DNA of 49,598 nt from Chloroflexota bacterium (lineage in GTDB: Bacteria; Chloroflexota; Dehalococcoidia; Dehalococcoidales; RBG-16-60-22): the NCBI GenBank assembly GCA_016190695.1, contig JACPQC010000013.1, positions 1-49,598 of the forward strand. Direction: 5' to 3'. The translations under genes and the position numbers were made by a program. This document shows, in pieces, positions 10,488 through 34,205 of this stretch (within the stretch, counting starts at the first letter, position 1; every line of letters begins with the position of its first letter). The notes beneath the pieces were generated by a model, which did not search any database, was not told the origin of the DNA, and saw nothing but the letters and a program-made list of their open reading frames with translations.

Positions 10488-10547
10488 CGCCCCTTCCCGG
10501 CGGGATTTGACGGGGATGAAAAACGAATAGATGTTTCCGTGAACCTA

Positions 10548-10659
10548 TCCGAGAATGTCATGCTGGAAGGAGCGAAGCGCCTGAAGCATCTCAGGGAATG
10601 GTGGGGAAAAGACAGGTCGGGACTCCAGCATGACAACCCTATCATTTTCGGACAGCCTC
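10548..10659. repeat. MITE-like dispersed repeat, short form
   Basis: Starts TCCGAGAATGTCATGCTGGA and ends GCATGACA...TCGGACAGCCTC. It shares its right terminus with the elements at 10869 and 43626; its left terminus has lost GAGGCTG. Confidence 0.75.
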
Positions 10660-10713
10660 CGACATACTATTTGCCCTCCGGATGCATGTTCGAGAGGCGC
10701 AAGCCCGGTGTGC

Positions 10714-10719
10714 TATAAT
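10714..10719 (+). promoter_or_regulatory. TATAAT -10 element, candidate promoter of the Crp/Fnr gene leader
   Basis: A consensus TATAAT without a good -35 lies after the 10548 repeat. Transcription from about 10726 would give a 350-nt leader to the gene at 11076, containing the possible stem below and the repeat at 10869. Confidence 0.4.
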
Positions 10720-10747
10720 TAAAGGAATTATTCTCACTAATCAACCC

Positions 10748-10819
10748 TGACCCCGCGCCATATACGAAACCAGGCAGTGCCGCGGAGCGAAACGGAGCAT
10801 CCGGCCGGGCTGGGGGTCA
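10748..10819 (+). other. Candidate structured leader
   Basis: TGACCC(C) at 10748-10754 can pair with GGGTCA ending at 10819, closing an arm whose inner ends CCAG (10770) and CTGG (10810) also pair and which holds a GCGAAACGG loop. I cannot assign it to a known RNA family; it may be a regulatory leader or chance structure. Confidence 0.25.
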
Positions 10820-10868
10820 AACCTTCGCCAGGTCCTTTGGAGACTCGCAAACTATTGATTGATCATAA

Positions 10869-11060
10869 GAGGCTGTCCGAGAATGTCATTCTGAGAGAGC
10901 GACCCACCTCCGCCGAGGCTTTGGTGGACAAGCGCGATCGAAGAATCTCGGGGTGGGGAAACAGATACTTGCAACCTCCCCCAGCCGAGATACTTCGCCG
11001 TCCCTGTACTAAGCTCAGGGCTGCTCAGCATGACAATTTGCAACTTTTCGGACAGGCTCT
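10869..11060. mobile_element. MITE-like element with GAGGCTGTCCGA termini
   Basis: A 192-bp element without coding capacity. Its ends GAGGCTGTCCGA and TCGGACAGGCTC are inverted repeats (11 of 12 paired), followed inward by AATGTCATTCTG and CAGCATGACA. It belongs to the same family as 43626-43792 and lies in the leader of the Crp/Fnr gene, ending 16 bp before its start. Confidence 0.75.
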
Positions 11061-11075: not shown

Positions 11076-11756
11076 TTGGACAAGGCGGCCAGGGCTGAAA
11101 TTCTGAAGAAGACGCTGATTTTCTCTGGCTTGAAAGAGGCTGAACTGGTGGTGCTGAGCCAGCTCGCCACAGAGCGACATTTCCAGCCCGAAGAGTTCGT
11201 CTTCTGGGAGGGGGACCCCTCCGATTACCTCTACATCGTCGCCGAAGGCCGCGTCAAGATAGTCAAGCACTCTTCCCAGGGCAAGGAGTTCATCGTCGGC
11301 TTTTTCGGCCCGTGTGAGATGTTCGGCGCTGTAGCGGTATTCGAGAACAGGCCCTTCCCGGCATCGGCCCAGGCGGCCGCCAATACCACGGTGCTCGGCA
11401 TCAAGAGGGAAGACCTGCTCAAGTTCCTGGCCACCCGCCCCGAGGTGGCGCTGAGGATCATCAACGTCCTGGGGGGGCGGCTCAGGGAGGCCCAGGGCCG
11501 GCTTACCGCCCTCGCCGGAGAGCGCGTGGAACAGCGCCTGGCCAGGACGCTGCTGGCGCTTTCAGCAAGACTCGGCCCCACCCTGCCCTTTACCCGCCAG
11601 GAGATCGCCGATATGTCCGGCACCACCACCGAGACCACCATCCGCTTTATGAGCCGCATGAAAGAGCGCGGCATCATCCGCTCCGTCCGCGGCAAGACCA
11701 CCATAGTAAACGAGACCAAGCTCAGGATCCTGAGCGAAGGCCCTCCCCTGGTATAA
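11076..11756 (+). CDS. Crp/Fnr family transcriptional regulator
   Basis: The 226-residue regulator has an N-terminal cyclic-nucleotide-binding jelly roll (FWEGDPSDYLYIVAEGRVKI; GEMFGAVAVFENRPFPASAQA) and a C-terminal winged helix (FTRQEIADMSGTTTETTIRFMSRMKERG). No cysteine cluster of the Fnr [4Fe-4S] type is present, which fits the DNR/HcpR-like NO- or redox-responsive branch better than O2-sensing Fnr (inference). The TTG start at 11076 is required by the family N-terminus (AEILKKTLIFSGL). It heads the hemerythrin/DUF2249 block, and a suitable binding box lies 26 bp downstream of its stop. It probably controls that block. Confidence 0.9.
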   Translation: MDKAARAEILKKTLIFSGLKEAELVVLSQLATERHFQPEEFVFWEGDPSDYLYIVAEGRVKIVKHSSQGKEFIVGFFGPCEMFGAVAVFENRPFPASAQAAANTTVLGIKREDLLKFLATRPEVALRIINVLGGRLREAQGRLTALAGERVEQRLARTLLALSARLGPTLPFTRQEIADMSGTTTETTIRFMSRMKERGIIRSVRGKTTIVNETKLRILSEGPPLV

Positions 11757-11781
11757 CCCCGCCAAACTGTCTCCGAATTTT

Positions 11782-11824
11782 ATGATGTAAATCATGGTCG
11801 ATAGTTGACTTGTCTGTTTATTAT
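11782..11824 (+). promoter_or_regulatory. Crp/Fnr-type activator box plus -10 element
   Basis: ATGATGTAAATCAT (11782-11795) has TGAT-N4-ATCA half sites as in FNR/DNR boxes. A TATTAT -10 (11819-11824) follows after 23 bp, placing the box near -42, the class II activator position. The identical 14-mer with identical spacing occurs at 34163-34205. It precedes the zinc-ribbon gene at 11856. Confidence 0.75.
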
Positions 11825-11855
11825 TATATTGACGAGTAAACGGAGGAAGTCCAAA

Positions 11856-12077
11856 ATGCATTGTCCCGGTCACGAAGAAAAGATGTTGCGAGTGGAACTC
11901 TATAAGTGCCCCAAGTGCGGCGCTGAAGTAGAGGTCTTTTCGGACGAGGAAAAGGTCAAGTGCCAGGACTGCGGCGAATACATCTACCGGGGCCAGACGC
12001 CTTCCTGCATTGACTGGTGCGCCTCGGCCCGCCAGTGCCTGGGCGAACAAAAATGGCGGCGGCTGACACGGCCGTAG
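11856..12077 (+). CDS. Small zinc-ribbon protein with CIDWC motif
   Basis: The 73-residue protein has one zinc ribbon (CPKC...CQDC, about 18-41) followed by CIDWCASARQCLGE, a cysteine motif typical of small proteins that accompany HD-domain and hemerythrin genes. The ATG at 11856 is chosen for the CGGAGGAAG site and the MHCPGHEE start. First gene behind the Crp/Fnr box; its stop is 11 bp from the next start. A metal-binding or sensing role is likely; the exact function is unknown. Confidence 0.75.
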   Translation: MHCPGHEEKMLRVELYKCPKCGAEVEVFSDEEKVKCQDCGEYIYRGQTPSCIDWCASARQCLGEQKWRRLTRP

Positions 12078-12088
12078 CGGAGTTTTCT

Positions 12089-12778
12089 ATGAGCAAGCAG
12101 CAGCTAAAGACAGTATACGGTGCCGGCTTGTCCGGAGCCTTCCGGGACTTCTTCGCGGACGTTGAGCCGGTCAGGGTCAGGGAACCCCTGGCGGAGACGC
12201 TGGGCGCCGTCCAGCCGGGCACAGTCATCGAGTACAGCTTCATCGACACGGTCAAGATGGCGGGGCATGCCTGCCCTACCGTTGCCGGCGCGTACATTGT
12301 CTGCCTGAAAGCCCTGGAGGCGCTCTATCCCGGCGAGACTCCGGTGCGAGGCGAGATCGGCATTACCGTATACGGCGAGCCGGACGAAGGGGTCTACGGC
12401 GTCATGGGGCAGGTGTTCAGCTTCCTCACCGGGGCGGCTCCTCTTTCCGGCTTCAGGGGGCTGGGACCTAAATTCCGGAGAAAGGACCTGCTCACCTTCA
12501 GCATGGAAAAGCCAGACCCGCAGGCCATGTGTTTTCAGTTCAAGAGGCTGGACACCGGCCGCACTGCCCTGGTCCGTTTCTATCCCCAGCTTGTCCCTTC
12601 TTCTCCGGAGACGGCGGGGCGCATGCGCCCGCTCATGGATGCCGTCGTCTGGGAGGCGGCTGCGGAAGAGGAAAAGGCTGAGTTCCACGAGCTATGGCTG
12701 GAGAAGGTCCGGGATATGCTGGTAGACAGGAAAGACATCGACAAGTGGTTAACAATCGAGGTAAAGGAGGGGAGATAG
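12089..12778 (+). CDS. FmdE-like domain protein
   Basis: A 229-residue protein with the FmdE family motif GHACPTVAGAY near residue 55 (family: GHxCPGxxxG), named after an accessory gene of molybdenum/tungsten formylmethanofuran dehydrogenase operons. FmdE-type proteins bind metal through the Cys/His motif and are found in non-methanogens beside redox enzymes. GGAG lies before the ATG at 12089. The gene abuts the DUF438/hemerythrin gene (next start is the very next base after this stop), so they are translated together. Its presence in an iron/NO block suggests a metal- or heme-handling role (inference). Confidence 0.75.
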   Translation: MSKQQLKTVYGAGLSGAFRDFFADVEPVRVREPLAETLGAVQPGTVIEYSFIDTVKMAGHACPTVAGAYIVCLKALEALYPGETPVRGEIGITVYGEPDEGVYGVMGQVFSFLTGAAPLSGFRGLGPKFRRKDLLTFSMEKPDPQAMCFQFKRLDTGRTALVRFYPQLVPSSPETAGRMRPLMDAVVWEAAAEEEKAEFHELWLEKVRDMLVDRKDIDKWLTIEVKEGR

Positions 12779-13789
12779 ATGAGCAACGTGAGGACTATTG
12801 ACATAAAAGGCCTGCAGCATGCCGAAAGGGAGGCGCTCATTTTCCCGGGCGTCGAGAGCCTGACCGACGGCGATATGCTGAGGATCGTCGTCGAATTCAA
12901 CCCGGTGCCCCTGGTGTACATGCTCAACGCCCAGGGCGAGTACGACATCGCTTACGAGAAAGAGGGGCCGGACGAGTGGATACTCAATGTGAAGCGCACG
13001 GCCCCCAGGCAGGACCGGAAAGGCCAGTTCAAGGAGCTGCTCTCCGAGATGAAGGAGGGTGAGGTCTCCGCGGAGACCAGGGACAAGGCCAAGCAGCTTT
13101 TCCAGGCCGTTGACGCCACCACGCTGGGGCTGCTGGAGCAGGAGCTTATCAGGGAGGGCATCTCCCACGACCAGATACGGAAGAGCCTGTGCGATATCCA
13201 CCTTGAGGTGATGCGGGACAGCCTGGTGGCCCAGAGGAAAGAGGTCGCCTCGCCCCACCCGGTGCACACCCTCATGGAGGAGCACAAGATCATCGTTGAA
13301 AGCCTGAACGATCTGGATGCCCTGACCCGGCGGATGGAGGCGACGGACAGCTTCGAGGCCTTCGGGGCTGACCTGGAAAGGCTCCGGGATATAGCCCACC
13401 ACCTGGTCGAGGCAGAAAGCCATCACCAGCGAGAAGAGGACGTCCTGTTCCCCAGGCTGGAGGCGCACGATGTCGTTGAGCCGCCGGAGATAATGAAGCA
13501 GGACCACGTCGAGTTCCGCCAGCGCAAGCAGGAGCTTTTCCGGCTGGCCCACAACCCCGGCTCGCTTGAGTACCACGCCTTCCGTGCCAGGGTGATCGAA
13601 CTGGGCCAGTACCTGGCAAAGGAACTGGAAAGCCATATCTTCAAGGAGGACAACATCCTCTACCAGATAGCCCTGCAGGTGCTCAGCGACGAGGAATGGC
13701 AGCAGGTGAAGCGAGACTGCGACAAGATCGGCTACTGCTGCTTCAGCCCGGAAGACATCAGGGGGGAGCCGGCCACCGAAGCGAAATGA
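12779..13789 (+). CDS. DUF2249-DUF438-hemerythrin fusion protein
   Basis: Three modules are visible. A DUF2249 domain spans 1-78 (TIDIKGLQHAERE...LTDGDMLRIVVEFNPVPLVYML...EWILNVKR). A DUF438 domain spans about 80-175 (FKELLSEMKEGE...LIREGISHDQIRKSLCDIH). The C-terminal hemerythrin HHE domain has HHLVEAESHHQREEDVLFPRLE, HVEFRQR and LESHIFKEDNILY, giving the His/Glu/Asp set of a di-iron site. DUF438-HHE proteins are cytosolic and associated with nitric oxide and oxygen stress. Fusion with DUF2249, also encoded alone at 13918, supports these domains acting together. Confidence 0.9.
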   Translation: MSNVRTIDIKGLQHAEREALIFPGVESLTDGDMLRIVVEFNPVPLVYMLNAQGEYDIAYEKEGPDEWILNVKRTAPRQDRKGQFKELLSEMKEGEVSAETRDKAKQLFQAVDATTLGLLEQELIREGISHDQIRKSLCDIHLEVMRDSLVAQRKEVASPHPVHTLMEEHKIIVESLNDLDALTRRMEATDSFEAFGADLERLRDIAHHLVEAESHHQREEDVLFPRLEAHDVVEPPEIMKQDHVEFRQRKQELFRLAHNPGSLEYHAFRARVIELGQYLAKELESHIFKEDNILYQIALQVLSDEEWQQVKRDCDKIGYCCFSPEDIRGEPATEAK

Positions 13790-13917
13790 CCTGGGGCTGT
13801 CCTGACCAGATAAACGATTTCTGCCAGCGGCTGAAAGTAGAGTGCGCCCCGGGAAGAAAGGGGTGTATCCTCAGCGGTAGAATCACTTTTCTCAAACCTG
13901 AAGAGGAGGCGACGAAA

Positions 13918-14154
13918 ATGGCAAAAGCTAATGTAGAGGTCCTGGACCTCAGACAGATAATGCCCTTTGAAAGGCATGAAAAGATTTTTGAGATGTGGGA
14001 GGCGCTGAAACCGGGCGAGACGCTCCAGATAATCAACGACCACGACCCCAAGCCCCTGCACTACCAGTTCGAGGCCGAATACAAGGGCAAGTACGAATGG
14101 GAGTACCTTGAGAGCGGCCCTAAAGACTGGAGAGTGAACATCAAAAAAGTCTGA
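13918..14154 (+). CDS. DUF2249 protein
   Basis: A single 78-residue DUF2249 domain (VEVLDLRQIMPFERHEKIFEMWEALKPGETLQIINDHDPKPLHYQFE...W). It is a TusA-like fold found beside hemerythrins and denitrification genes. GAGGAGG precedes the ATG at 13918; the longer open frame upstream overlaps the previous gene and is not supported. Paralogous to the N-terminal module of the 12779 protein. Confidence 0.85.
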   Translation: MAKANVEVLDLRQIMPFERHEKIFEMWEALKPGETLQIINDHDPKPLHYQFEAEYKGKYEWEYLESGPKDWRVNIKKV

Positions 14155-14277
14155 ACCTTCCTCCCCGTAAACTTCGCCCGGGCCTGGCGGTGTCGGTATG
14201 TCGAGGGCTGCGAGGCCCGCTTTGGGGAGATTTTTGCGACTAAAGTAATTGCAGAACCGGAGGAGAATAGCTATATT

Positions 14278-14772
14278 ATGATTAACACAAAGAAGCCGAC
14301 ACAAATTCTTAAGGAAGAGCACAAGGAGGTGCTCCAGAAACTTGATGCGCTGGAAGAAATATTTGCCAAACTGGACAGCAAACAGGAGGTGGCTGAGCGG
14401 CTGAAGGAGTTGGCTGGCTTTTTCGCCGTCGATTTCTGGCTCCACTTCGCCAAAGAAGAGGAAGCCCTCTTCCCCGAGATCGAGAAGTTCATCCCCCGAG
14501 ACGGCGGGCCGACCGGTATGATGCTGATAGAGCACGAAGACCTGAGAAACACCAATGCCAGGATCCAGGAAGCAGTAAGCCAGTATCTCAGCGGCTCCGA
14601 TGCCCCGGAGACCAGGGAAGTGATTCGCAAGAAAGGCATTTACTTCATCGCGTTGCTCAGGGAGCACATCACTAAGGAGGATAATATCCTGTTCATGATG
14701 GCAGACATGCACATGGACGGGAACCAGGCAGAAAAGGTCCTCAAGCTCTTCGGGGAAATAGAGAAGAGATAA
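14278..14772 (+). CDS. Hemerythrin HHE-domain protein
   Basis: A 164-residue four-helix bundle with a likely di-iron site: H15, H56-x3-E60, H86 and H130-x3-E134-D135 follow the hemerythrin ligand spacing. GGAGGAG lies upstream of the ATG. Such stand-alone cytosolic hemerythrins bind O2 or NO or, like YtfE/Ric, donate iron for Fe-S repair. It lies third among the di-iron genes of the block, 22 bp before the next one. Confidence 0.88.
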   Translation: MINTKKPTQILKEEHKEVLQKLDALEEIFAKLDSKQEVAERLKELAGFFAVDFWLHFAKEEEALFPEIEKFIPRDGGPTGMMLIEHEDLRNTNARIQEAVSQYLSGSDAPETREVIRKKGIYFIALLREHITKEDNILFMMADMHMDGNQAEKVLKLFGEIEKR

Positions 14773-14794
14773 TATTGAAGGAGGTGATCGGAAT

Positions 14795-15292
14795 ATGGTA
14801 ACCAGACTAAATCCCATCACCGAGTTTCGGGAAGACCACCGCAAGGTCCGGGATGCGCTGCTGGCGCTTTCCCAGGCCGCCTTGGACCGCGATATCGCCC
14901 AGGCCAGAGATGTCCTGGGGCTGATAGATTCAATGGTCGGGCCGCATTTCCGCTATGAAGAGGAAACCCTGTACCCGGCCATGAAAGAGTTCCTGGGAGA
15001 CTACGTGGACAGCCTGCTGGCGGAGCATGACACCGCCATTGATACCGCCAGGACCGCCGCCAGGCTGCTGGCCCAGCCCTCTCTGTCAGAGGAGGATGGC
15101 AAAGCGGTAGCCAGTGCGGCCAGGGCGCTGCTGGTGCACGTGAGCAACTGCGATGGCCTGAACATCCTGGCCGAGCGTTTCAGCCCGCAGAAACTGGACG
15201 ATCTGGGCGAGCGCTTCGCCCGGTCCCGCGCCGAAGGCGTGCCCCTGCTGCGCTGGGCAAACACTATTCGAAAGAGGGCGCAGGCGAGTTGA
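14795..15292 (+). CDS. Hemerythrin-like protein
   Basis: A second four-helix bundle protein (165 residues) with H15, H51-x3-E55, H78 and H115-x4-D120 (HVSNCD). The last motif contains a cysteine and lacks the usual KED, so the iron site may differ from that of its neighbour. AAGGAGGTGAT precedes the ATG. The stop overlaps the DsrE-like start by four bases. Confidence 0.82.
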   Translation: MVTRLNPITEFREDHRKVRDALLALSQAALDRDIAQARDVLGLIDSMVGPHFRYEEETLYPAMKEFLGDYVDSLLAEHDTAIDTARTAARLLAQPSLSEEDGKAVASAARALLVHVSNCDGLNILAERFSPQKLDDLGERFARSRAEGVPLLRWANTIRKRAQAS

Positions 15293-15702
15293 CAACGGAG
15301 AAAGAGCGGGTCGCCATTATCCTGCACAGCGGGGCTTATGATCGTGTGTCCTACGCGCTGACGCTGGCGCTGGTAGCTCTGGCTAGCGGCATGGAGGTAC
15401 ATATATTGCTCACCTTTGAAGCGCTGAGGCGCTTCACAAGAGGGCATCTGATGGACCTGGGAGAGGAGACCGCACTGGCATTGCGGGAGCAAATCGGGCG
15501 CGGGCTGGAGTCCGGAGGAATTGAACCCATTGAGGCACAGCTATCTGAGGCCAGGAAGCTGGGGCTAAAGCTCTATGCCTGCCCTAACGCCATGGCAGCG
15601 CTGAATATCGCCTTGGCCGATTTATTGCCGGAGATAGACCAGGTCATGGGGCTGGCTGCTTTTACCAGGTTGGCTCGCAACGCCGTTAACTGGTATATCT
15701 GA
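15289..15702 (+). CDS. DsrE/DsrF-like protein
   Basis: This 137-residue protein has the DsrE-like alpha/beta pattern: VAIILHSGAYDRVSYALTLALVALASGMEVHILLTFEAL, then a membrane-free helical middle and GLKLYACPNAMAALNIA with one cysteine near 105. Family members relay sulfur or act as peroxiredoxin-like accessory proteins. Starts with TTG inside the preceding stop (TTGA), so translation is coupled to the hemerythrin-like gene. Confidence 0.78.
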   Translation: MTTEKERVAIILHSGAYDRVSYALTLALVALASGMEVHILLTFEALRRFTRGHLMDLGEETALALREQIGRGLESGGIEPIEAQLSEARKLGLKLYACPNAMAALNIALADLLPEIDQVMGLAAFTRLARNAVNWYI

Positions 15703-15747
15703 GCCAGGGCCGGGACGCTATCCTTTAAGATGTGGAGGTAGGTAAAC

Positions 15748-16128
15748 ATGGTTTCTGACCTTAAAGAAAAGGTGGTCTCTTCACTGGTGGACAACCAGTT
15801 GCCCTGTGCCACGGCCTTTGACATCGCCAGGGAAATGAAGGCAAGCCTGCGCCAGGTGGGCGATGCGGCCAACGAGCTAAAGGTGAGGCTGGTCAGTTGC
15901 CAGCTTGGCTGTTTCCAGGTGAAGAAGTCCACCCATGACGACCTGCAGGGCGCCGCGCCAGACCAGGAGTTAGCGGCCAAAATCAAAGCCTCGCTGATAG
16001 AGGGGCACCTGCCCTGCGCCGTGGCCATGAAGCTGGCCAGCGAAACGGGGGTCACCCCCAGGAAGATCGGCGACACAGCTACCCTGGAGAAGATCAGGAT
16101 AGCCAAATGCCAGCTTGGCTGCTTCTGA
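15748..16128 (+). CDS. Duplicated CQLGCF-motif protein (FeoC-like?)
   Basis: The 126 residues consist of two tandem units of about 44 residues that are 20/44 identical by hand alignment. Each has LPCA near the start, a helix-turn-helix-like middle (ASLRQVGDAAN / VTPRKIGDTAT) and CQLGCF at the end. Every unit thus offers three cysteines (C and C-x3-C). The winged-helix-plus-cysteine design recalls FeoC or Fe-S regulators, but I recognise no named family with certainty. GGAGGTAGGTAAAC precedes the ATG. It may be an Fe-S or metal sensor of the block. Confidence 0.7.
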   Translation: MVSDLKEKVVSSLVDNQLPCATAFDIAREMKASLRQVGDAANELKVRLVSCQLGCFQVKKSTHDDLQGAAPDQELAAKIKASLIEGHLPCAVAMKLASETGVTPRKIGDTATLEKIRIAKCQLGCF

Positions 16129-16148
16129 CCTTGAGGGAGGAAATTTCG

Positions 16149-16520
16149 ATGATGAAATTGAAGCGCGCGTACCAGCCTGAAGAACCGGGAGACGGCATCA
16201 GGGTGCTGGTGGACCGGCTGTGGCCCAGGGGCCTGTCCCGCGGCAGCGCCGCTATCGATGAGTGGGCCAGGGAGCTTGCCCCCAGCAGCGAACTTCGCCG
16301 CTGGTTCGGCCACAAACTGGAACAGTGGCCGGAGTTCCGGCGGCTCTACCGGAAAGAGCTATCTGCCCGCGGTGAAGACCTGGAGAGACTGGCCAGGATG
16401 GCTGCCAAGGGGAATGTTACCCTGGTGTATGCGGCTAAAGACGTTGAGCACAACAATGCCCGGGTGCTTGCCGAAATGATAAGCGAGATCGGTAGCAGGC
16501 TGGAGATGGTAAAATTCTAA
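16149..16520 (+). CDS. DUF488 (YeaO-like) protein
   Basis: A 123-residue DUF488 protein with the hallmark VDRLWPRGLSR (about 24-34), then IDEWARELAPSSELRRWFGH and VTLVYAAKDVEHNNA. The biochemical role is unknown. GAGGGAGGAAATT precedes ATGATG; the first ATG is taken. It follows the CQLGCF gene by 20 bp and ends the tightly packed part of the block, before a repeat-filled gap. Confidence 0.88.
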   Translation: MMKLKRAYQPEEPGDGIRVLVDRLWPRGLSRGSAAIDEWARELAPSSELRRWFGHKLEQWPEFRRLYRKELSARGEDLERLARMAAKGNVTLVYAAKDVEHNNARVLAEMISEIGSRLEMVKF

Positions 16521-16615
16521 GCTCTGATATCTAAATCCAAAACAAGGCGCAAAATCCAAATGTCAAATAGCAAGAAGTTCAGCTTCTCGCGAAACACATT
16601 GCCCACTTCAATGCT

Positions 16616-16710
16616 TGTCATTCCCCGCGCAGGCGGGGAATCCACTTGGTGCCCAAGCAGACCCTCCGCTCCCGTATCAAGTACGGGACAGGCTTCGCGG
16701 AGGGTGACAG
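16616..16710. repeat. Dispersed repeat (TGTCATTCCCCGCGCAGGCGGGGA...)
   Basis: Begins with TGTCATTCCCCGCGCAGGCG and includes the palindromes CCCCGCGCAGGCGGGG, CCCGTATCAAGTACGGG and CCCTCCGC.../...GCGGAGGG, ending GGTGACAG. It is flanked by AAATCCAAA and TTTGGATTT arms, a common composite repeat style. Confidence 0.7.
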
Positions 16711-16763
16711 TTTCACGGGAGGCTAAAGTTTTAAGCTTTGGATTTTGTAATTTGATCCACAAT

Positions 16764-16967
16764 CGTCATTGCGAGCCATCCCGTCTTAAGCGGGAGGCGT
16801 GGCAATTCCTATAGTTGGATGAACACTTAATGTGAGAGATTGCCACGCCTGCGTGCCGTAACGCTTGCGCGTAGTCGCTTGGCGTAGGCGGGCACTTCGG
16901 TGTGCAGGCACGTCGCCCTTGCCTGCCGGAGCCTTGGCGTAGGTAGGTCGGATCCTCGCGATGACAA
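16764..16967. repeat. Dispersed repeat (CGTCATTGCGAG...CTCGCGATGACA)
   Basis: A 204-bp element whose ends are near-perfect inverted repeats, with inner GGCGTGGCAAT / ATTGCCACGCC arms and several smaller palindromes. Together with the element at 16616 it occupies nearly all of the 480-bp gap; no gene is seen there. Confidence 0.75.
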
Positions 16968-17000
16968 ACTGTTAATCAATTCAATAGAAAGTGACAGACA

Positions 17001-17375
17001 ATGGCCGAGATATTCACCAGGTTGACCGGTAAAAAAGCCAGGGACATCAAGGTCCTGGCGGATTTCGTCTCTATCTTTTGCCGGGAAAGACACCAGAACA
17101 TGGTCAAAAACGCCTTCCCCATCCGGGATGACCGGCTCCGCGAAGTGCTGGACGCCAGGGAGCCGAGGCTGTGCCAGGAATGCAACAAGCTGCTGAACCA
17201 CGGCATCGCCAAGCTGATGCTCTGTCCTCATGACCCCAAGCCAATGTGCAAGAAATGCACCACCCACTGCTACGCCCCCGGCTACCGCGAGCGGGTCAGG
17301 GAGGTCATGAAGTTCTCCGGCCTGCACCTTATCAAGCATGGCCGGGTGGATATGCTGCTGCATTACTTTTTCTAG
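17001..17375 (+). CDS. YgbA-like nitrous-oxide-stimulated-promoter family protein
   Basis: The 124-residue protein carries the family pattern LCQECNKLL...LCPHDPKPMCKKCTTHCYAPGYRERVREVMKFSGLHL near its C-terminus, with six cysteines and two histidines able to hold zinc or Fe-S. E. coli YgbA belongs to the NsrR (nitric oxide) regulon, so its presence here supports a nitrosative-stress role for the block. It is separated from the DUF488 gene by repeats and followed after 6 bp by the HD gene. Confidence 0.8.
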   Translation: MAEIFTRLTGKKARDIKVLADFVSIFCRERHQNMVKNAFPIRDDRLREVLDAREPRLCQECNKLLNHGIAKLMLCPHDPKPMCKKCTTHCYAPGYRERVREVMKFSGLHLIKHGRVDMLLHYFF

Positions 17376-17381
17376 TGAGGG

Positions 17382-17924
17382 ATGATGGATACCAAACAGG
17401 CGCTGCTTAAAGTCATGGAAGACTACTTCGACAGCGATGTCAAGAGGATAAACCACGCCCGCTGGGTCACCGAATACGCCGAAAAGCTCCTGGACAGGGA
17501 AGGCGGAGACCGCCCGGTGGTCATCGGGGCTGCCATCCTTCACGATATCGGCATTCACCAGGCCGAGCAAAAGCACGGCAGCACCCTGGGCAAGTACCAG
17601 GAGATGGAAGGGCCGCCCATCGCCCGCGATATCCTGGCCAGGCTGGGGTATTCACCGGAGCACATCACTGAAATCTGCGACATCATCGCCCACCACCATA
17701 GCCCAGGTAAGATAACCACCAGGAACTTCAGCATCGTCTACGATGCCGATTGGCTGGTGAACCTCCGGGACGAATACGACATCGGGGACAAGGCCAGGCT
17801 CGGCCACATCATCGACCGGGTTTTCCTCACCGGCAGCGGCAAGGCCCTGGCCAGGAGCATATACCTGGTCGAGCCAGGCAGCTTGAAAGACCTGGTGTGG
17901 CGTGATATGATAATGTTCAGATAG
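17382..17924 (+). CDS. HD-domain phosphohydrolase-type protein
   Basis: The 180-residue protein has the HD metal-site order: HARWVTEYAEKLL (H near 25), AAILHDIGIH (HD near 54), IIAHHHSP and VYDADWLVNL (D near 122). Such proteins hydrolyse nucleotides or phosphate esters; the substrate is unknown. A GAGGGATG sequence precedes the ATG. Last gene of the block, and its stop lies six bases before the riboswitch of the tungstate operon. Confidence 0.85.
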   Translation: MMDTKQALLKVMEDYFDSDVKRINHARWVTEYAEKLLDREGGDRPVVIGAAILHDIGIHQAEQKHGSTLGKYQEMEGPPIARDILARLGYSPEHITEICDIIAHHHSPGKITTRNFSIVYDADWLVNLRDEYDIGDKARLGHIIDRVFLTGSGKALARSIYLVEPGSLKDLVWRDMIMFR

Positions 17925-18164: not shown

Positions 18165-19049
18165 ATGGCTTTGAAACATATTCGCAAAGGTCGCACTTTG
18201 CTGGCGGGCATTTTGCTTATCATCGTCCTGGCGAGCACAGTGCTGACAGGCTGCGGCGCAGAGACGCCGGTGCTGGAGCCGAAGGCCCGGCTGAAGCTGG
18301 CCACTACCACCAGCCTGTACGACACCGGCCTGTGGGGACATCTGGAGACGCTGTTCGAGAAGAAGTACGGCGTGGAGCTGGACATATTATACGCCGGTAC
18401 GGGCAAGGCCCTGGAGCTTGGCCGCAGAGGGGATGTGGATGTACTGGCCGTACATGACCTGCCTAGCGAAGAGCGGTTCATCGCTGACGGCTACGGCGTC
18501 AAGCGGGTCCCCTTCGCTTACAACTACTTCATCATCGTGGGGCCGTCTGCCGACCCGGCGGGCATCAAGGGCCTCAGCCCGGAGGCAGCCTTCATCAAGG
18601 TGAAGGAGACCAGCGGCGCCTTCGTGTCCCGGGGCGACGACTCCGGCACCCACGCCAAAGAGAAGGCCATCTGGAAGGCAGCCGGACTCGACTATGAGAT
18701 GGTGAGGCAGTCCGGCCAGTGGTATATAGAAGCCGGTAGCGGCATGGGGCCGACCCTGATGATGGCCAGCGAGAAGCGCGCCTATACCCTCACCGACATC
18801 GGCACCTTCCTGGCCTACAAGGGCAAGCTCGACCTCGTACCGCTGGTGGACAAGGGAGAAACGCTGCTCAATGTCTATGCTGCCATAGCGGTGAACCCGG
18901 AGAAGGTGAAAGGGGTCAACTACGACATGGCCAATAACCTGATAGGCTTCCTCACCTCAACCGGGATACAGAAGCTCATCGGCGACTACGGCGTGAAGGA
19001 GTACGGCACACCGCTTTTCAGCGCATACAGTGACGAGGTGGAACAATAA
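18165..19049 (+). CDS. tupA: Tungstate ABC transporter, substrate-binding lipoprotein
   Basis: The 294-residue protein begins with a lipoprotein signal (TVLTGC, lipidated C30). The mature part opens KLATTTSLYDTGL, the TupA/WtpA-type oxyanion-binding TTTS motif, and continues with SRGDDSGTHAKEKAIW and GSGMGPTLMMASEKRAYTLTD. TupA binds tungstate (and sometimes molybdate) with high selectivity. GAGGTGAAGTT precedes the ATG. The upstream riboswitch would turn expression down when the cofactor is plentiful. Confidence 0.9.
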   Translation: MALKHIRKGRTLLAGILLIIVLASTVLTGCGAETPVLEPKARLKLATTTSLYDTGLWGHLETLFEKKYGVELDILYAGTGKALELGRRGDVDVLAVHDLPSEERFIADGYGVKRVPFAYNYFIIVGPSADPAGIKGLSPEAAFIKVKETSGAFVSRGDDSGTHAKEKAIWKAAGLDYEMVRQSGQWYIEAGSGMGPTLMMASEKRAYTLTDIGTFLAYKGKLDLVPLVDKGETLLNVYAAIAVNPEKVKGVNYDMANNLIGFLTSTGIQKLIGDYGVKEYGTPLFSAYSDEVEQ

Positions 19050-19109
19050 CGTAGAGTAGCCGTTTCGCGAGAGAGTTGCTCATTGAGTAAGCTATGGCAC
19101 AGGTGAACG

Positions 19110-19793
19110 TTGACTGAAATATGGCAGGGTCTGGTCCGGGCCATAGAACTGATCGTAACCCTCGATGCCGAGGTCATAGAGATAACCTGGCGCTCCCTGA
19201 CTATTTCGGTCATTGCGACAGTCCTTGCTTCAGTCCTTTGCCTGCCCCTGGGCGCTCTCGTTCATTTCCGCCGCTTCCGGGGAAAGCGCCTGCTGATAAG
19301 CCTGGTGCAGACCCTGTACAGCGTGCCCACCGTGGTCATCGGCCTCCTCGTTTTCATCCTGCTCTCACGCTCCGGCCCCCTGGGGGGCTTGAATCTCCTG
19401 TTCACTCCGGCGGCGATGGTGGTGGGGCAGGTCGTCCTGATAATACCCATCCTGCTCGGCCTGACCATCTCCGCCCTTAGCTCGGTTGACCGGACCATCG
19501 CCGATACCGCCCGCTCGCTGGGGGCCAGCGGCCCTCAAACGGCCGTGCTGGTGCTCACCGAGGCCAGGTTCGCCGTCACGGCGGCGGTCATCATGGCCTT
19601 TGGCCGCGCCATATCAGAGGTAGGCATAGCCATAATGGTCGGCGGCAACATCCGCGGCTTCACCAGGGTGCTCACCACCGCCATATCACTGGAGACATCA
19701 CGCGGAGACGTAGAGCTATCAATGGCGCTGGGGCTGATATTGCTCCTGATCGCCCTGGCCGTGAACTTGACGCTTAACAGGATACAGAGATAA
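19110..19793 (+). CDS. tupB: Tungstate ABC transporter, permease
   Basis: A 227-residue inner-membrane permease with about five helices and the binding-protein-dependent transport signature (DTARSLGASGPQTAVLVLTEARFAVTAAVIMAFGRAISEVG). The TTG start at 19110 is preceded by AGGTGAA. It follows tupA by 60 bp and is followed two bases later by the ATPase gene. Confidence 0.92.
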   Translation: MTEIWQGLVRAIELIVTLDAEVIEITWRSLTISVIATVLASVLCLPLGALVHFRRFRGKRLLISLVQTLYSVPTVVIGLLVFILLSRSGPLGGLNLLFTPAAMVVGQVVLIIPILLGLTISALSSVDRTIADTARSLGASGPQTAVLVLTEARFAVTAAVIMAFGRAISEVGIAIMVGGNIRGFTRVLTTAISLETSRGDVELSMALGLILLLIALAVNLTLNRIQR

Positions 19794-19795
19794 TC

Positions 19796-20884
19796 ATGCC
19801 ACTGATAGAGACGAATGACCTCTGCCAGAGATACGATGGGCGGCACATCCTCAGGAACATCAACCTGAGCATTGAAGCAGGCGAAGTGCTGGCCCTCATC
19901 GGCCCTACCGGCGCCGGCAAGACCACGCTGCTGCGGCTGCTCGCCCTGCTCGATACACCCACATCCGGGGCGATATTTTTCGACGGGGCGAACGTGGCCG
20001 GGTCTCCCCGCTTCAGGCTGGAGATGCGGCGGCGGATGGCCTTCGTCCTGCAGAAGCCGATGGCCTTCAATGCCAGTGTCTATGACAACGTGGCCTCCGG
20101 CCTGCGGTGGCGGGGGCTGGGCCGGGCGGAAGTGCGTGACCAGGTGGAACGCGTCCTGGAGATGATAGGCCTGTCCGCCGACAGGAACAGGAACGCCCGC
20201 ACCCTGTCCGGCGGCGAGATGCAGCGGGTGGCCATCGCCCGCGCCATCGCCCTGGACCCGGAAGTGCTGCTGCTGGACGAGCCAACCGCCAATCTGGACC
20301 CGGTCTCGGCAAGGCGGACCGAGGAGCTACTGGCCGCGGTGATACGGCAGCGCTCCGCTACCGTCATCCTCTCCACCCATGACCTGGCCCAGGGCCAGCG
20401 CCTCGCCGACCGGATAGGCGTGCTCATCAACGGCGAGATTCCCCAGATAGGCACCTCCCGTGACATATTCGTCTCCCCCGGCAGCAGGGAGGTGGCCGAG
20501 TTCGTCGGGGTTGAGAACATCCTGGACGGAACGGTACTATCCAGCGCAGAGGACGTTGTGACCGTCGATATCGGCGGGGGACTCATTGAGGCGGTCTCCG
20601 ATGTCGCTGTGGGGCAAAGGGTGTCCGTCTGCGTCAGGCCGGAGAACGTGACGCTGGCCCTGTCCCGGCTCTCCAGCAGCGCCAGAAACTCTTTTACCGG
20701 CAAGGTGACCTGGCTCTCGTCGGCGGGGCCTCTTGCCCGCGTTCACGTGGACTGCGGCTTTCCCCTGGTAGCCCTGGTCACCAGGAGGTCAGCGGCCGAC
20801 CTCGACCTGCACATAGGCCGGCAGGTATACGTCACCTTCAAGGCCAGCGCTACCCATGTGATCAGGACGGAAAGAGATAGCTGA
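19796..20884 (+). CDS. tupC: Tungstate ABC transporter, ATP-binding protein
   Basis: This ATPase has Walker A GPTGAGKTT (36-44), Q86, the signature LSGGE (137-141), Walker B LLLDEP (158-163) and H195. At 362 residues it is longer than a bare ABC domain: residues from about 240 on look like a C-terminal oxyanion-responsive or TOBE-like regulatory domain (VSVCVRPENVTL...FTGKVTWLSS...). The order tupABC is the standard one. Confidence 0.9.
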   Translation: MPLIETNDLCQRYDGRHILRNINLSIEAGEVLALIGPTGAGKTTLLRLLALLDTPTSGAIFFDGANVAGSPRFRLEMRRRMAFVLQKPMAFNASVYDNVASGLRWRGLGRAEVRDQVERVLEMIGLSADRNRNARTLSGGEMQRVAIARAIALDPEVLLLDEPTANLDPVSARRTEELLAAVIRQRSATVILSTHDLAQGQRLADRIGVLINGEIPQIGTSRDIFVSPGSREVAEFVGVENILDGTVLSSAEDVVTVDIGGGLIEAVSDVAVGQRVSVCVRPENVTLALSRLSSSARNSFTGKVTWLSSAGPLARVHVDCGFPLVALVTRRSAADLDLHIGRQVYVTFKASATHVIRTERDS

Positions 20885-33905: not shown

Positions 33906-34124
33906 TTAGACGGCCAGGACTTCTTTGATCTCGGGGATCTCTTTCCTGAGAATGCGCTCGATGCCCATCTTGAGGGTCATCGTGGACATGGCGCAACTGC
34001 CGCAAGCGCCCATAAGCTTGACCTTGACAGTGCCATCGGTGACGTCCACCAGTTCCACATTCCCGCCGTCCATCATCAAGCTGGGGCGTACTTTATCCAG
34101 GACCTCTTCAACTCTCTCTTTCAT
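33906..34124 (-). CDS. NifU C-terminal-like Fe-S scaffold protein
   Basis: The 72-residue protein is a NifU-like domain ([24 protein letters not shown]...[27 protein letters not shown]) with the C-x2-C cluster ligands. Such proteins carry and transfer [4Fe-4S] clusters. The ATG at 34124 is preferred over 34142 because AAAGGAG lies just upstream. A Crp/Fnr-type box and -10 precede it (34163-34205), identical to the promoter at 11782. This suggests control by the Crp/Fnr regulator and a role in cluster repair under nitrosative or oxidative stress (inference). Confidence 0.9.
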
Positions 34125-34162: not shown

Positions 34163-34205
34163 ATTGTAATCCTGCCAGGTAAGCGTGTCAAATGATGTAA
34201 ATCAT
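34163..34205 (-). promoter_or_regulatory. Crp/Fnr-type activator box plus -10 for the NifU-like gene
   Basis: ATGATGTAAATCAT (34192-34205), then leftward 23 bp and TACAAT (34168-34163), placing the predicted start about 32 bases before the ATG at 34124. Same 14-mer and same spacing as 11782-11824. Confidence 0.75.

Follow-up and report, generated by a model that had tools for sequence, protein, structure and literature searches.

A twelve-gene hemerythrin and iron-sulfur island in a Chloroflexota genome as the probable main operon of an HcpR-like nitrosative-stress regulon

The stretch of DNA analysed here, hereafter the window, comprises 49,598 nucleotides from a Chloroflexota bacterium of the class Dehalococcoidia (assembly GCA_016190695.1, contig JACPQC010000013.1). 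It is contig C33 of a metagenome-assembled genome (MAG) of 1.34 Mb that is 70% complete. Gene calls, with families assigned at Pfam and NCBIfam profile cut-offs, place an island of twelve genes at positions 11076-17924, all on the plus strand. It opens with a Crp/Fnr-family regulator gene (11076-11756, TTG start), whose product, the predicted island activator, carries cNMP_binding (1e-25) and HTH_Crp_2 (4e-19) domains. A predicted operator, ATGATGTAAATCAT (11782-11795), and, 23 nt past it, a predicted -10 box, TATTAT (11819-11824, plus strand), lie in the 99 bp that separate this gene from that of the CIDWC zinc-ribbon protein (11856-12077). There follow an FmdE-like protein with an AGHxCP signature (12089-12778; sub-threshold Pfam match plus predicted fold), a DUF2249-DUF438-hemerythrin (HHE) fusion with a Cys-rich C-terminus (12779-13789), a free DUF2249 protein (13918-14154), the hemerythrin-domain proteins HHE1 (14278-14772) and HHE2 (14795-15292), a DsrE-like protein (15289-15702), the CQLGCF protein with two repeats (15748-16128), a DUF488 protein of the inactive N3 subclade (16137-16520), a YgbA_NO family protein (17001-17375) and an HD-domain protein (17382-17924). 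A preliminary description of the window had proposed this same-strand set, and all twelve genes were found where it had placed them. Profile matches bear out its names for Crp, CIDWC, the fusion, DUF2249, the hemerythrins, DsrE, DUF488, YgbA and HD, and the CQLGCF protein is duplicated internally, as it had said.

Seven junctions are tight (11, 0, 22, -4, 45, 8 and 6 bp); wider gaps measure 128, 123 and 480 bp. Refined starts were assigned to the FmdE gene (ATG 12089) and the DUF488 gene (16137). The free DUF2249 gene starts at 13918, or alternatively at 13787, overlapping the fusion stop codon; this in-frame ATG (window 13787-13917) would give the protein a four-cysteine leader. The 480-bp spacer between DUF488 and YgbA (16521-17000) contains inverted repeats and is probably a later insertion, because only 16 bp separate the same genes in a Chloroflexi relative, locus L202. 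Copies of a short repeat, TGTCCGAGAATGTCAT, occur with inverted repeats at window 10546-10889 and 16520-17000, flanking and interrupting the island, and are possibly small mobile elements. A tungstate-type ABC transporter (TupABC-like, window 18165-20884) directly follows the island.

In 20 of 20 loci, window included, the interval from the Crp gene to the next target gene contains the palindrome ATGAT-N4-ATCAT, against 0.05 expected from shuffled sequence; the palindrome was not seen upstream of crp. Where the ferredoxin gene that accompanies Crp in relatives is separated from CIDWC, a second operator copy stands before the ferredoxin. When 34 sites were aligned on the operator, a TATNAT box was found to start 22-23 nt downstream, and a strong -10 at offset 22 is present at 25 of the 28 core sites, compared with 0 of 34 control sites. 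This geometry, read directly from the sequences, would centre the operator at about -42, a class II activator position. Searched across the 245 genomes of the same class that form our comparison set, the composite of operator and -10 gave 52 matches, versus 5 in reversed controls.

In the genome of the window, which was searched for patterns and gene families, the composite occurs exactly three times: before the island, before an Nfu gene and before a cytochrome c-narG-narH-narJ operon (narG 1568 bits, narH 646 bits). The second copy (34192-34205) has a -10 box, TACAAT, on the minus strand, and the gene of the NifU-domain (Nfu) iron-sulfur (Fe-S) carrier (33906-34124, minus strand; PF01106, 9.5e-31) lies 67 bp past it. 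We infer that the nitrate reductase belongs to the regulon in this genome. Two other sites were noted: C2:98675, a match to the operator without a clear target, and C5:21500, which is flanked by a hemerythrin gene and by one resembling CsoR and where the -10 match is absent.

In relatives, the same operator precedes hcp in the genomes G138 and G143; among the loci, it stands before Hcp with CIDWC-ferredoxin downstream in L252, an Hcp-NapH-like-YgbA-HD operon in L255 and NrfH-NrfA in L256. It also precedes a Crp-ferredoxin-DUF488-flavodiiron operon in L245, DUF2249-HHE-CQLGCF in L042, a NapH-like gene with CQLGCF in L044 and, as a weaker site, a NifS-resembling class-V aminotransferase in L246. 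In G008, HHE2-DsrE-CQLGCF shares contig and strand with cytochrome c-narG. In L248, the operator and a -10 box stand before a Fur-family gene, and an encapsulin-like gene, recognised by eye, lies upstream.

The island families also travel together. Of the 245 genomes, 71 encode the CIDWC protein, 31 encode CQLGCF and 20 encode the fusion. The commonest building block is Crp-CIDWC-ferredoxin, the ferredoxin usually following Crp (about 25 loci), and CQLGCF-YgbA-HD is inserted into this unit in several loci (L049, L050, L117). Other blocks are FmdE-fusion-YgbA-HD (L129), HHE2-DsrE-CQLGCF (L137), CIDWC-HHE1-FmdE-fusion (L116) and ferredoxin-fusion-YgbA-HD (L132). Nearly the whole island recurs in L202: CIDWC-hemerythrin, FmdE, fusion, HHE1, nitroreductase, HHE2, DsrE, DUF488, YgbA and HD, together with CQLGCF, a small ferredoxin and a divergent Crp gene. 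Large parts recur in L129/L203 (the latter Chloroflexi MAG record JACPQD010000084), L116, L132 and L117. Judged by gene content and order, the clustering is more than chance, since other genomes bring the same families together again, in part with their order retained; the conservation on which the preliminary description had staked its proposal is thus present.

A scan of named genomes for FmdE gave nine loci and extends one part of the island well beyond the class. An FmdE gene followed by a DUF2249/DUF438-type gene is directly visible in Brocadiaceae, Aminicenantes, Calditrichaeota and an Undinarchaeales archaeon. A gene of the Rrf2 type lies upstream of the FmdE-fusion pair in four loci (one Pfam-checked, the others by eye), and Nfu is present in four of the FmdE-fusion loci. 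In the promoter region upstream of the Rrf2 genes in L204, L205 and L207, from two phyla, stands a related palindrome, ATGATAC...GTATCAT, the L205 copy being imperfect. In these three Rrf2-FmdE loci it directly follows a TTGACA-like element, which is suggestive of a candidate Rrf2 repressor site. In L204 (3455-4857, Brocadiaceae), the C-terminal half of the ferredoxin protein is a separate gene adjoining that of a hemerythrin-like protein extended by an additional N-terminal domain. The class ferredoxin itself shares 48.5% identity with a Roseburia protein whose gene neighbours Crp/Fnr and hcp, as in the HcpR/FrdX arrangement. Related FmdE proteins of 38-43% identity occur in Azospirillum, in nirK-FmdE-hemerythrin clusters adjoining nor-like genes; in Paracoccus, in an Rrf2-FmdE cluster with NnrS nearby; and in Sulfuricurvum, near nap, Crp/Fnr and moaA. 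The association of FmdE with N-oxide genes is, on this gene-order evidence, not universal, because the related FmdE copies on haloarchaeal plasmids adjoin a cation ATPase instead.

Residue conservation was examined in sets of 34 CIDWC, 20 Crp and 13 fusion sequences. In Crp, the recognition-helix residues T184-x-E186-T187-x-x-R190 are at least 95% conserved. A PDB search with Crp returned generic Crp/Fnr and cNMP-binding relatives only and did not point to a sensor. Each of the eight CIDWC cysteines is 97-100% conserved, and in L202 (Pfam-confirmed) and likewise L129 (by sequence) CIDWC is joined to a hemerythrin domain. The His/Glu pattern and C314/C320/C321 of the fusion are invariant. Hemerythrin-type His/Glu sets are kept in the fusion and in HHE1; HHE2 carries a conserved HVSNCDG where the last canonical HxxxE is expected, with a Cys close to the position of that ligand motif. 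The DsrE-like protein has an invariant C98, the YgbA protein conserved Cys/His residues, and the HD-domain protein (HD profile, 5e-10) invariant H25, H54-D55, H104-H105 and D121. These conserved residues would fit metal or sulfur chemistry.

Family membership is firm for the YgbA protein, above the curated YgbA_NO cut-off (PF11756; 61.1 versus 25 bits, 2e-16) and that of NF007714 (109 bits, cut-off 88), for DUF488 (inactive DUF488-N3 subclade, 6e-41) and for the free DUF2249 protein (4e-28); for the latter as a possible TusA-like sulfur carrier, hhalign against the TusA profile gave a probability of 37% over 40 columns. The FmdE-like label given earlier holds at the level of fold, although the sequence score (PF02663, 20.9 bits) is under the Pfam cut-off of 22.9. 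For the predicted structure (predicted local distance difference test, pLDDT, 86.7), the sole significant PDB fold matches are the FmdE structures 2glz and 2gvi (probability 1.00, template-modelling score 0.43-0.63); a PDB sequence search with the FmdE profile gave nothing, the matches coming from fold comparison alone. CQLGCF matches no Pfam or NCBIfam family at cut-off. Its AlphaFold model, built for two sequences (pLDDT 71, predicted template-modelling score 0.41), has an H-E-H-H-E repeat resembling a winged helix and gave no significant fold match. Searches of plasmids found nothing with CQLGCF and distant DUF438 proteins only with the fusion. The CQLGCF domain also forms the C-terminus of longer proteins that start with a TrmO/TsaA-like domain (L055, L141, L150; TIGR00104, 110.7 bits in L141). 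By eye, the middle region of these proteins resembles FmdE, and they may represent an independent FmdE-CQLGCF association. Genes like aldehyde ferredoxin oxidoreductase (AOR) lie near CQLGCF at L137 5152-6984 and L202 5743-7503, which, with the tungstate transporter, hints at a molybdenum/tungsten (Mo/W) connection.

We consider it probable, on these comparative data, that an HcpR-like Crp/Fnr activator governs a nitrosative-stress regulon here and that the island forms the main operon of this regulon. A link to nitric oxide (NO) or N-oxide stress and Fe-S repair is supported, because one operator is common to the island, Nfu and narG here and to hcp, nrfHA and Crp-ferredoxin-flavodiiron in relatives. 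The NO-stress reading of the preliminary description, largely supported by this evidence, is probably right. That description had also drawn on the absence of Hcp and flavodiiron proteins to propose that the set may act by iron-nitrosyl chemistry and Fe-S repair. Here the island appears as one arm of a regulon that includes both enzymes in relatives, not as a stand-alone substitute. Its claim of an undescribed island stands for the putative Fe-S-protection cassette itself, while the regulon appears to be of a described, HcpR-like kind.

We infer NO as the signal, activation as the mode of control and every biochemical step of the cassette, as follows. Nitrate respiration through NarGHJ would yield nitrite and also NO, the latter by a chemical or biological route. 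The Crp protein would sense NO, directly or indirectly, bind ATGAT-N4-ATCAT centred at about -42 and recruit polymerase at class II promoters. This would switch on transcription of the island, the Nfu gene and cytochrome c-narGHJ. The di-iron hemerythrin proteins may scavenge NO or deliver iron where centres are damaged. Rebuilding or shielding of Fe-S centres may fall to DsrE/DUF2249, Nfu and YgbA and to CIDWC and CQLGCF, both Cys-rich. Any biochemical role of FmdE, CIDWC, CQLGCF, DsrE and HD in the island is putative. More tentatively, FmdE, the fusion, the HHE proteins, DsrE and Nfu might form an unrecognised, horizontally mobile machine for NO tolerance and Fe-S repair. It would range from Chloroflexota to anammox planctomycetes and archaea, with a Crp activator in some lineages and an Rrf2 regulator in others.

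Several points weigh against the nitrosative-stress regulon. Crp has no conserved Cys in the 20 sequences, and hence no sensor site was identified. Several of the class-wide operator matches fall inside or near unrelated genes. The co-occurrence of narG with the fusion (8 observed versus 1.3 expected, p 4e-6) and with CQLGCF (8 versus 2.0) speaks for the regulon but, like the enrichment of hcp with CIDWC and with CQLGCF, is uncorrected for kinship. Finally, neither Hcp above cut-off nor a full-length ferredoxin was found in this 70%-complete genome.

Other explanations account for part of the same evidence. Hemerythrins and flavodiiron proteins can handle O2, and the operon could instead answer O2 or iron, its hemerythrins carrying or sensing O2 and its products shielding the Fe-S enzymes of an anaerobe from oxidative damage, with the overlap with NO genes secondary. 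The operator before a Fur-family gene near an encapsulin-like gene in L248 would suit this explanation. Yet the operator partners include Hcp, NrfHA, NarG and YgbA, the FmdE neighbours include nirK and NnrS, and the operator-linked genes examined included no recognised superoxide reductase, rubrerythrin or catalase; we regard an O2 or iron response as unlikely. Much the same holds for a role in the assembly or supply of Mo/W enzymes, which is also improbable. FmdE, CQLGCF and DsrE would then mature NarG or aldehyde oxidoreductase, as the adjacent tungstate transporter, the operator common to island and narG, the AOR genes near CQLGCF and the FmdE near moaA and nap in Sulfuricurvum could suggest. 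Such a role leaves the hemerythrins, YgbA, Nfu and Hcp unexplained, however; no operator stands in front of TupA, and many FmdE-fusion operons lack Mo/W genes.

It is very improbable that unrelated small stress genes merely came together by chance in one MAG. The 480-bp gap and repeats before YgbA-HD could be read that way, and the preliminary description rested on a single MAG window, but the recurrence of nearly the whole set in L202 and of large parts in the other loci named above, plus the shared operator, contradicts it.

An HcpR-like regulon of this kind would be an operator-defined N-oxide-stress regulon in a Chloroflexota class for which no HcpR paper was found in the literature searched. 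Through it, CIDWC, CQLGCF, the FmdE-like protein and the HD protein linked to YgbA, which have no assigned role, are tied to Hcp, NrfHA, NarG and Fe-S assembly, and several of them are placed in one testable circuit. It also suggests that nitrate-reducing members of the lineage may carry a dedicated NO-protection cassette. The operon is short and cloneable, and is suited to probing the functions of YgbA, DUF2249 and DUF438 proteins; the FmdE-hemerythrin link reaches denitrifiers such as Azospirillum.

Among known systems, HcpR regulons of anaerobes are the closest. They share with the present one a Crp/Fnr regulator gene beside its own targets, a palindromic operator, targets of the hemerythrin type and, in relatives, targets of the Hcp and NrfHA type and a Crp/Fnr regulator next to an FrdX-like ferredoxin. 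The published targets of HcpR include hcp, frdX and hemerythrin-like genes, among others (PMC1274295). In C. difficile, HcpR mediates an induction of hcp and frdX by NO of about 200-fold, and cells in which either gene is knocked down are NO-sensitive (PMC12915319); in D. desulfuricans, HcpR1 binds both heme and the promoter of napC (PMC5701242). However, the operator found here, ATGAT-N4-ATCAT, differs from the published TTGAC-N4-GTCAA, GTAAC-N4-GTTAC and TGTGA-N6-TCACA (PMC1274295). Because it matches no published HcpR motif, we class the regulon as HcpR-like and not as HcpR. In addition, the core targets here are CIDWC and the ferredoxin, plus the FmdE/DUF438/YgbA/HD cassette, and the present genome, at 70% completeness, yielded no Hcp above cut-off. 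In the literature searched, no paper joins HcpR with Chloroflexi or FmdE with hemerythrin.

The hemerythrins recall YtfE/RIC/ScdA, hemerythrin-domain proteins tied to NO damage. Their best score here is 37.5 bits against a cut-off of 204.7 (TIGR03652, PRK10992), and the fusion differs in its DUF2249-DUF438 front and Cys-rich tail. The FmdE-like protein shares the predicted fold and GHxCP signature of the FmdE family (formylmethanofuran dehydrogenase operon protein), but falls below the Pfam cut-off and lies beside hemerythrin and NO genes rather than fwd/fmd. DUF2249 proteins occur in nitrate and denitrification gene sets, as for DrpA/DrpB and in haloarchaea (PMC6282519, as cited in PMC11218638), and Haloferax DUF2249 genes are induced in denitrification (PMC11218638); here, in contrast, DUF2249 is both free and fused to DUF438-HHE. 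Finally, the NsrR (Rrf2) regulon, with ygbA, ytfE and hcp, likewise brings YgbA and hemerythrin repair genes together under a single regulator that answers NO. In E. coli, ygbA responds to NO and is under NsrR control (PMC5320621), and in other phyla an Rrf2 gene lies upstream of the FmdE-fusion pair. Unlike that regulon, the island is without Rrf2 and has a Crp-family regulator at a predicted activator geometry.

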